A stretch of DNA of 64,000 bases. It comes from an uncultured Methylococcales bacterium (GTDB lineage Bacteria; Pseudomonadota; Gammaproteobacteria; Methylococcales; Methylomonadaceae). Numbering within the stretch: position 1 is the stretch's first letter; each line of letters starts with the position of its first letter. The stretch is taken from the NCBI GenBank assembly GCA_913019935.1, contig CAJVZC010000001.1, positions 32,968-96,967 of the forward strand, written 5' to 3'. Below the pieces are notes generated by a model. It was not told the origin of the DNA and did not search any database. It worked only from the letters and a program-made list of their open reading frames with translations. Shown one piece after another: positions 53,292 through 55,942 of the stretch. A program made the translations under genes and the position numbers.

Positions 53292-53741
53292 ATGAAAAAA
53301 ACTACACGACAAATCTGGGTGTTTTTTTATGCACTTACCCTAAGCTTATTGTTAACCGCGTGCTCGGATGACAACCAAAAAGAAGCCGTACAGACACCCT
53401 CAGCAGTTGTCAACGCGCCACAAAAGTTGAGCTTTGATCATGGCCATAACCAAGCAAAAGACATGGACAAGCATCCTTTTGAACATAAGTTTGCGCAGCA
53501 GTGCATCGCACGCGAAATAAAAAACTCAATCAATAAAGAAATTGACCGTGCTCGATTTAAAAAACCCTGCCTGTGTATCGCGACTTATATGATGAAAGAC
53601 TTAACCGCAACGGAAGCTCAAAAATTCCTAAGAGAACAAAAAAACACACAATCACTTCGCATTCGCTACGATAATGCTGCTTTCCATTGTCTACAACAAA
53701 AACAAACGCCACAAGCACCGACTATTTTTAAGTCCCGATAA
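53292..53741 (+). CDS. Hypothetical lipoprotein, His/Cys-containing
   Basis: Lipobox LLTAC; C-terminal C...KKPCLCIATYMMKDLTATEAQKFL pattern. Confidence 0.7.
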   Translation: MKKTTRQIWVFFYALTLSLLLTACSDDNQKEAVQTPSAVVNAPQKLSFDHGHNQAKDMDKHPFEHKFAQQCIAREIKNSINKEIDRARFKKPCLCIATYMMKDLTATEAQKFLREQKNTQSLRIRYDNAAFHCLQQKQTPQAPTIFKSR

Positions 53742-53779: not shown

Positions 53780-54547
53780 TTACGGCGGGTAGATAACCCC
53801 TTTAGCGGCTAAATCCTTGATAATTTCCAGCCCACCGTTGTAAATAACACTCGACTTAAAATCAACAAACTCGCCGGCCAACGCCTTTAAACAATCATCC
53901 ACCAACCAAACAGGCTGCTGCTGAAGTAGCTGAAGCAAGCGAAAGGTTATCGGTGTCATTTCTATAAAATTAACATCTAAATCACTATTCCGATAAACCA
54001 ACAAAAAAGTGGCCACCTCGGGCGGACATTGTGGTTTAAAATCTGAAGAAATTAAGTGTACTGGATACTGATAAGCCAATGGCCAAGCTAAGGACGACAA
54101 GGCGACTTCGGTCGTCAACGGCTCCAAAATAAAAGGGCTATAATTCTCAGGTTGCCTATCGGTAGAAATAGCTAATGCCAATTCGACCCATTCATAATGC
54201 GCCAATTCCAACATGAATGGATGGTCGCCTGCCAATGGAACGCGTTCCTCCTGAAGGTAAGTCAGAAATTCTTCCGGTATTTCGGAGAAATACGGACTCT
54301 TACTGCTATGAACAAGAAAATAATCCTGACACAATTGTTTCCATGTCTCATCTTCAATAAGGGAACGTAAAATAGGAAAACTCGTTTCTAGAAAACTAGA
54401 GATATTGTTAAACATCAGCTCACGATGAATATCAATCCGCTCGGGTACGATACCTTCTGGAACAGGACAAGCCTGTGGATTTCTTAAATAATCAGTAAAT
54501 GCTGCCTGCTTCTGCTGAAAAGAAAAAACATTACCTTTGTTAGCCAT
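53780..54547 (-). CDS. hvfC: DUF2063-type HvfC/MbnC-like RiPP modification partner
   Basis: FSFQQKQAAFTDYLRNPQACPVPEGIVPERIDIHRELMFNNISSFLETSFPILRSLI; overlaps DUF692 gene. Confidence 0.85.
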   Translation of the reverse strand: MANKGNVFSFQQKQAAFTDYLRNPQACPVPEGIVPERIDIHRELMFNNISSFLETSFPILRSLIEDETWKQLCQDYFLVHSSKSPYFSEIPEEFLTYLQEERVPLAGDHPFMLELAHYEWVELALAISTDRQPENYSPFILEPLTTEVALSSLAWPLAYQYPVHLISSDFKPQCPPEVATFLLVYRNSDLDVNFIEMTPITFRLLQLLQQQPVWLVDDCLKALAGEFVDFKSSVIYNGGLEIIKDLAAKGVIYPP

Positions 54548-55417: not shown

Positions 55418-55783
55418 TTATCTTTTCCCTACACACTTACCTTCTGGCATTTTAGGTTCTTCACCCATCATCATAGCGCCGCACTGACCTTCGCCACAAG
55501 AACCTTCTTTCATTCCTGCTTTTGCACCACATTTCATTTCACCTGTCTTCATGGCCTTCATTTGAGCGCCACACTTCATGTCAGCTTTCTTCATGCCCTT
55601 CATTTGAGCCCCACACTTCATTTCACCTTTCTTTGTGTCTGCCTCAGCCAACTGCATATAGCCACCTGATAGCTCATTCAATCCAAAAGGACTAACTTCA
55701 GCATTTACGCCAGTAGAACCTAAAGAAGAAACTAATGCTGTACCTAATGCTGCCACCAATGGTGTTTTATTAAACTTTTTCAT
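55418..55783 (-). CDS. hvfA: HvfA-like Cys/Met-rich RiPP precursor peptide with N-terminal signal/leader
   Basis: Signal-like N-terminus, leader-like SPFGLNELSGGYMQLAEAD, then core with EMKCG, DMKCG, EMKCG, EGSCG, EGQCG, EGKC motifs; directly upstream of DUF692 gene. Confidence 0.85.
   Translation of the reverse strand: MKKFNKTPLVAALGTALVSSLGSTGVNAEVSPFGLNELSGGYMQLAEADTKKGEMKCGAQMKGMKKADMKCGAQMKAMKTGEMKCGAKAGMKEGSCGEGQCGAMMMGEEPKMPEGKCVGKR
55508..55633 (-). repeat. 42-bp (14-aa) tandem coding repeat in hvfA core
   Basis: Cys57, Cys71 and Cys85 spaced exactly 14 residues; (E/D)MKCGA(Q/K) conserved; DNA copies cttcatttgagc at 55556 and 55598, 42 bp apart. Confidence 0.8.
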
Positions 55784-55815: not shown

Positions 55816-55835
55816 TTGTACCTTTATTGTACCTT
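55816..55835. promoter_or_regulatory. Direct repeat TTGTACCTT x2 with 11-bp period upstream of hvfA (AAGGTACAA on coding strand)
   Basis: Read directly: 55816-55824 and 55827-55835, about 32 bp before hvfA ATG; TACAAT within it could be a -10 element. Confidence 0.4.
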
Positions 55836-55942
55836 GGAATTTAATAACTGTATCGCGTCCTTTTGTCGCGCTGACTACTCGCCTAAATTTCAAAGTCATC
55901 ATCCCACGACCATTTTTTAACCCCACCTATAAAATGCAGGGA

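Follow-up and report, generated by a model that had tools for sequence, protein, structure and literature searches.

In the 64,000-nucleotide stretch of DNA from an uncultured Methylococcales bacterium that we analysed (hereafter the window), we find a three-gene operon whose first gene we assign, on sequence grounds, to the captophorin (Buf_EGKCG/oxazolin) precursors, a known type of copper peptide. We consider it likely that this gene encodes an HvfA/Buf_EGKCG-type captophorin whose EMKCG motifs are ordinary substrates of the maturase, that the product is an exported Cu(I) buffer, and that its 14-residue units represent a tandem expansion at the level of the genus. Judging by its homologs, EMxCG is a lineage-wide variant of the Methylococcales and the most common motif at the first cysteine across methanotroph genera. 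The features of the locus, in window coordinates, are the following.

55418 to 55783, minus strand: hvfA-type captophorin precursor, 121 aa, matching NF050137
55700 to 55783, minus strand: putative Sec signal peptide, residues 1-28
55652 to 55690, minus strand: conserved post-signal segment PFGLNELSGGYMQ, residues 32-44, from an alignment of 20 homologs
55583 to 55624, minus strand: 14-residue unit 1, EMKCGAQMKGMKKA (Cys57)
55541 to 55582, minus strand: 14-residue unit 2, DMKCGAQMKAMKTG (Cys71), 37/42 nt identical to unit 1
55418 to 55540, minus strand: ancestral module with Cys85, Cys96, Cys101 and Cys117, colinear with the core of locus L022
54540 to 55397, minus strand: HvfB-type MNIO maturase, 285 aa (NF003818, PF05114, 3bww)
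53780 to 54547, minus strand: HvfC, the DUF2063/RRE partner, 255 aa (NF050145, PF09836, PF22106, 3dee)
55826 to 55871, minus strand: upstream block of 46 bp, 5' of the precursor gene and conserved within the genus, a candidate promoter/operator

The translation of the precursor gene, MKKFNKTPLVAALGTALVSSLGSTGVNAEVSPFGLNELSGGYMQLAEADTKKGEMKCGAQMKGMKKADMKCGAQMKAMKTGEMKCGAKAGMKEGSCGEGQCGAMMMGEEPKMPEGKCVGKR, matches the NCBIfam HvfA-family domain NF050137 with 32.9 bits (cut-off 19.5), a threshold that is also cleared by the precursors of three genus members. Against the stricter HvfA equivalog model NF050188 it scores 25.3 bits, below the cut-off of 95, and by NCBI's rule it is a member of the HvfA family, not an HvfA equivalog. 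Homologs are present in 53 of the 61 relative genomes, its own genome counted. The nearest of them, at 80-95% identity, come from the same-genus Methylococcales MAGs UWMA-0325, UWMA-0047, OPU3_GD_OMZ and ETNP20_MAG_37; we place the host accordingly among Methylococcales methanotrophs close to OPU3, and the record names of the relatives suggest a marine, low-oxygen habitat.

The operon has the hvfABC order (precursor, MNIO maturase, DUF2063/RRE partner), a three-gene captophorin arrangement that is already known (PMC12452194, PMC13097082). The maturase scores 435.3 bits against NF003818 (cut-off 360) and 355.7 bits against PF05114, with 3bww as its best PDB match (E = 3e-70), and HvfC scores 277.3 bits against NF050145 (cut-off 142), also matches PF09836 and PF22106, and retrieves 3dee from the PDB (E = 4.5e-11). 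A DoxX gene is missing from the operon, and across the five genus members a search for it gave a single weak match. Convergent with hvfC lies a 149-residue lipoprotein-like open reading frame (53292-53741, plus strand), which scored above none of the family cut-offs. The 46-bp upstream block is almost the same in each of the five genus members, with the flanking intergenic DNA diverging between subgroups; we rejected it as an order-wide element, since of the 79 named loci only 4, all from this genus, have it 5' of hvfA. A sigma-70 scan of the region gave nothing clearly above shuffled expectation. Five loci from other Methylobacter-like genera (L066, L069, L071, L073 and L074) have, 5' of hvfA and immediately 3' of a TATGAT box, a palindrome resembling ATTCGATACG-N-CGTATCGATT.

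The N-terminus of the precursor begins with a start rich in lysine followed by a hydrophobic stretch, and Ala28 is invariant in the alignment of 20 homologs. Read by eye, signal cleavage would fall after VNA, and the signal peptide may double as the leader peptide, as work on HvfA suggests (PMC13419390). Behind it, P32, F33, G41, Y42, M43 and Q44 are invariant across the same 20 homologs, making the post-signal segment a likely piece of the maturase/RRE recognition site. An AlphaFold2 model built from the 20-sequence alignment predicts an essentially disordered precursor (mean pLDDT 44), which speaks against a defined fold and fits a flexible substrate.

The core (residues 51-121, window 55418-55633) contains 12 methionines among its 71 residues and six cysteines, at positions 57, 71, 85, 96, 101 and 117. 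The first three lie in [ED]MKCG motifs spaced exactly 14 residues apart, which makes half of the six motifs of this type; the other three, the only ones that approach E-G-K-C-G, are EGSCG (Cys96), EGQCG (Cys101) and a final EGKCV, not EGKCG (Cys117). Translation bears out the residue numbers, motifs, spacing and methionine count of the original prediction. Chance is ruled out as the source of the repeat: when the core was shuffled 20,000 times, the 19 identities observed at a lag of 14 were never reached, and three [ED]MKCG motifs never arose. The further claim, of three near-identical 14-residue units, needs refinement: units 1 and 2 are near-identical, and the third is no close copy of either (21/42 and 19/42 nt alike). 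Unit 3 is better read as the start of the ancestral module, for the core of L022, a locus from another genus (EMKCGASMGMKEGSCGEGKCGAMM...EGKCAGNK), runs colinear with residues 82-121 (EMKCGAKAGMKEGSCGEGQCGAMM...EGKCVGKR), and the two share the cysteine spacings of 11 and 5.

We thus describe the array as one or two extra 14-residue units, apparently specific to the genus, set ahead of an otherwise ordinary module. As had been proposed for comparison, repeat number does vary between related genomes: the five genus members carry two or three copies of the [ED]MxCG unit, with one inserted unit in ETNP20_MAG_37 and two in the other four. Between units 1 and 2 of a single genome, 37/42 nt are alike in the window; for UWMA-0047 the figure is 41/42, for OPU3 40/42. 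The window units agree with those of UWMA-0047 and OPU3 at 32-36/42 nt; being more alike within genomes than between them, they fit recent duplication or homogenization within lineages. Such closeness within two of the genomes, the copy number of two or three among the five genus members and the variation in cysteine-repeat number known from the captophorin family would all be expected of an array that arose by neutral slippage of the 42-nt unit and has no effect on function. We regard this as possible though doubtful, as all units keep the cysteine, the glycine and the methionine at position 2, and it is the spacer residues that vary. Comparable expansion is seen elsewhere, with GEMSCGAMMEKMKS repeated in 14-residue tandem in L038, and EMKCG motifs paired 13 residues apart occur in L023, L025, L027 and others of Methylococcales family f4.

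Among the precursors of relatives (n = 55), 38 contain [ED]MxCG, 34 have E-M-x-C-G as their first core motif, and at motif position 2 methionine ranks second in frequency (60/405). Of 79 named Methylococcales loci, 74 contain [ED]MxCG and 70 have it in first place; these loci were chosen by similarity to the window and form a biased set, which led us to draw samples by way of the maturase gene. Anchored in this way, [ED]MxCG is found in 44 of the 58 precursors of families f1, f4 and f5, usually at the first core cysteine. By family the counts are 22/25 in f4, 21/32 in f1 (leaving out one spurious open reading frame, L242), 1/1 in f5, 0/3 in f7 and 0/1 in f8, and no clear precursor was found in f6. 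Outside the order the motif occurs in none of 48 clear precursors (50 were called, of which L199 and L222 were excluded by eye), position 2 being glycine in 327 of 352 motifs there. Comparing 44/58 with 0/47 by Fisher's test yields 1e-17, a figure that overstates the evidence because the genomes are related. Median core methionine is 11.4% in f1, 10.8% in f4 and 1.8% outside the order. One outside precursor (L160) among 29 in a score-ranked sample has DMKCG, so that the motif is rare outside the order, not absent there. On the HvfB tree the EMxCG label can be explained by four changes, shuffled labels needing 6.6 on average; it is clustered without forming one clade.

These counts rule out EMxCG as a curiosity of a single gene. 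The original prediction was right that EMKCG departs from the dominant EGKCG, and the question it had raised, whether the motif is specific to a lineage, is answered in the affirmative; as an oddity, the motif does not survive the comparison, being common inside the order, the very outcome that the prediction had taken to speak against itself. No description of the EMxCG class was found in the literature searched (main open texts), and its novelty is provisional. In several long methanotroph precursors (L009, L011, L013, L031 and L050) the C-terminal part shows a second cysteine pattern, MKxC with MQGC or MVGC at 7-residue spacing, unlike the acidic-x-x-Cys-Gly motif.

How the enzyme would treat such motifs can be judged from relatives, in which the scheme of leader, partner and maturase, the conversion of cysteine to 5-thiooxazole and copper binding are established (PMC13097082, PMC13419390, PMC12538549). 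All six HvfA cysteines are converted by HvfBC (PMC13419390), and bulbicupramide, an EGKCG product, binds Cu(I), its operon aiding the growth of E. coli at 2 mM Cu (PMC12538549). As far as the accessible text of PMC13097082 goes, FonBC processes non-proline changes at motif position 2, methionine not being named among the variants there; position 5 is the strict one, with alanine alone accepted among the double variants tested; the glutamate at position 1 is thought to contact an arginine; the minimal FonA substrate is two adjacent repeats, a single repeat being left unmodified; the chemistry is that of a 5-thiooxazole; and up to four Cu are bound per FonA fusion. EMKCG keeps the acidic residue at position 1, the lysine at position 3, the cysteine and the small residue at position 5, differing only at the tolerant position 2, and we think that it is probably modified to 5-thiooxazole as an ordinary substrate. 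Given the tolerance at position 2 and the strictness at position 5, the likeliest site to stay unmodified would be Cys117, followed by valine, and not the EMKCG cysteines; turnover of the latter might be lower, as a single FonA repeat is unmodified and the EMKCG units lie 14 residues apart. Modification or metal data for any EMxCG peptide were not found in the literature searched.

The maturase itself gives no pointer to altered specificity. Its R17-R18 and D252-F253 match by motif R15-R16 and D249-F250 of FonB, and the equivalent residues are conserved in 53-56 of 56 sequences, including those of species with EGKCG only. That precursor and enzyme share one operon, and that the genus sits on a long branch of the HvfB tree, would suit a cognate maturase that accepts EMKCG through a shifted specificity or, as the original prediction had suggested, a broadened one; with contact residues those of EGKCG enzymes, we consider this very improbable and set aside an altered maturase. 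The companion proposal divided the core into two site classes, the EMKCG cysteines remaining thiols in Met/Cys Cu(I) sites and the EGxCG half bearing the thiooxazoles. Methionine at or near position 2, abundant in the core, would suit Cu(I), the variant is strongly lineage-specific, and its preference for the first core cysteine could mean a special role; yet the motif retains all features reported as relevant to turnover (the acidic position 1, the cysteine and the small position 5), position 2 is tolerant in the available FonBC results (PMC13097082) and the contact residues are unchanged, all of which disfavours the proposal and makes it improbable in our estimation.

We therefore return to EMKCG as an ordinary substrate and propose the following scheme. 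HvfC would bind the N-terminal leader of the precursor, and HvfB would oxidize the core cysteines, those of EMKCG among them, to copper-binding 5-thiooxazoles. The product would leave via Sec and buffer Cu(I) in the periplasm, where the methionine-rich spacers may supply weaker thioether ligands, and tandem expansion of the 14-residue unit in the genus would provide more copper sites per peptide.

A wider role is conceivable, in which the methionine-rich EMxCG type is a methanotroph adaptation for storing copper or handing it over to the particulate methane monooxygenase (pMMO), not only for detoxification. In the pMMO-bearing families f1 and f4 this type prevails, and it is missing from f7 and f8, where the PF02461 genes are divergent; searches detected an HvfB-type MNIO in 119 of 121 genomes of the order, in all 38 genera sampled, the class-wide figure at the same E-value being 216 of 370. 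We rejected a strict link between EMxCG and pMMO, however, because the PF02461 test shows a lineage pattern with exceptions: family f3, with its pmoA match (E = 2e-114), and the class member G342, with its three strong PF02461 genes, both have canonical EGKCG, and f5 carries EMKCG with no PF02461 match found there. With strong PF02461 genes beside canonical motifs, and with few independent origins, descent alone may explain the correlation; the known relatives, moreover, are tied to copper excess. We hold the supply of pMMO to be an unlikely role, to be entertained tentatively. Still more speculative, and in our view quite unlikely, is the fuller proposal that Methylococcales use distinct methionine-rich EMxCG captophorins in which thiooxazoles and methionine thioethers form Cu(I) sites supplying pMMO, and in which lineages of marine low-oxygen waters tune the number of sites through tandem 14-residue units.

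Two f8 species carry a fusion of an HvfA-like EGKCG core with a cupredoxin-like domain (L302, 5362-6210, and L303, 2531-3361, both minus strand), with NF050137 and PF07731 both above cut-off. Upstream of the fusion genes, on the same strand, come pmoC, pmoA, pmoB, a gene for a membrane protein of 176 aa and one for a multicopper oxidase, and the place of the fusions beside pmoCAB appears to point the same way as the supply of pMMO. Among the order-wide matches listed, the HvfA-like half was matched only in these two species, the cupredoxin part occurring alone elsewhere. A PDB sequence search with the fusion gave no match, and no description of it was found in the literature searched (main open texts), so that its novelty is provisional. 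Gammaproteobacterial methanotrophs rely on a copper monooxygenase, and how they handle copper is poorly defined; several alphaproteobacterial methanotrophs use methanobactin, which is likewise MNIO-made. A near-universal hvfB-type system with an order-specific methionine-rich precursor core offers a concrete candidate for this task, and the EMxCG variant provides a natural test of the residues that the maturase allows before the modified cysteine.

Comparison with known systems places the window closest to the EGKCG captophorins oxazolin/HvfA (Haemophilus influenzae), fontiphorin (FonA) and bulbicupramide (MmrA), with which it shares a putative Sec-type signal, a Cys-Gly repeat core, the gene order ABC and the adjoining HvfB-type MNIO and DUF2063/RRE partner; it differs from them in first motifs that are EMKCG instead of EGKCG, in a spacing of 14 and not 5 or 17 residues, in its methionine-rich core and in an operon without DoxX. 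The precursors of Methylobacter, Methylovulum, Methylotuvimicrobium and Methylomonas share the EMxCG first cysteine, the methionine-rich core and the leader NPFG..ELS.GYMQ, but other Methylococcales precursors usually have EGxCA and CGAMMKGKEGxCG modules after a single EMxCG, and lack the triple 14-residue array with lysine. Methanobactin (MbnA/MbnB) is likewise an MNIO-modified copper peptide of methanotrophs; however, the window maturase reaches only 51.4 bits on the MbnB-type model TIGR04159 (cut-off 325), and the window precursor combines a putative Sec-type signal with many Cys-Gly motifs. The bufferins Buf1 (DUF2282) and Buf2 (Buf_6/12Cys) resemble the window system in their MNIO and DUF2063 partners, in the Sec signal, putative in the window precursor, and in copper buffering, predicted for its product, but the window precursor has no DUF2282 match in a Pfam search, and its maturase, at 273 bits, lies under the BufB cut-off of 310 yet over that of HvfB.
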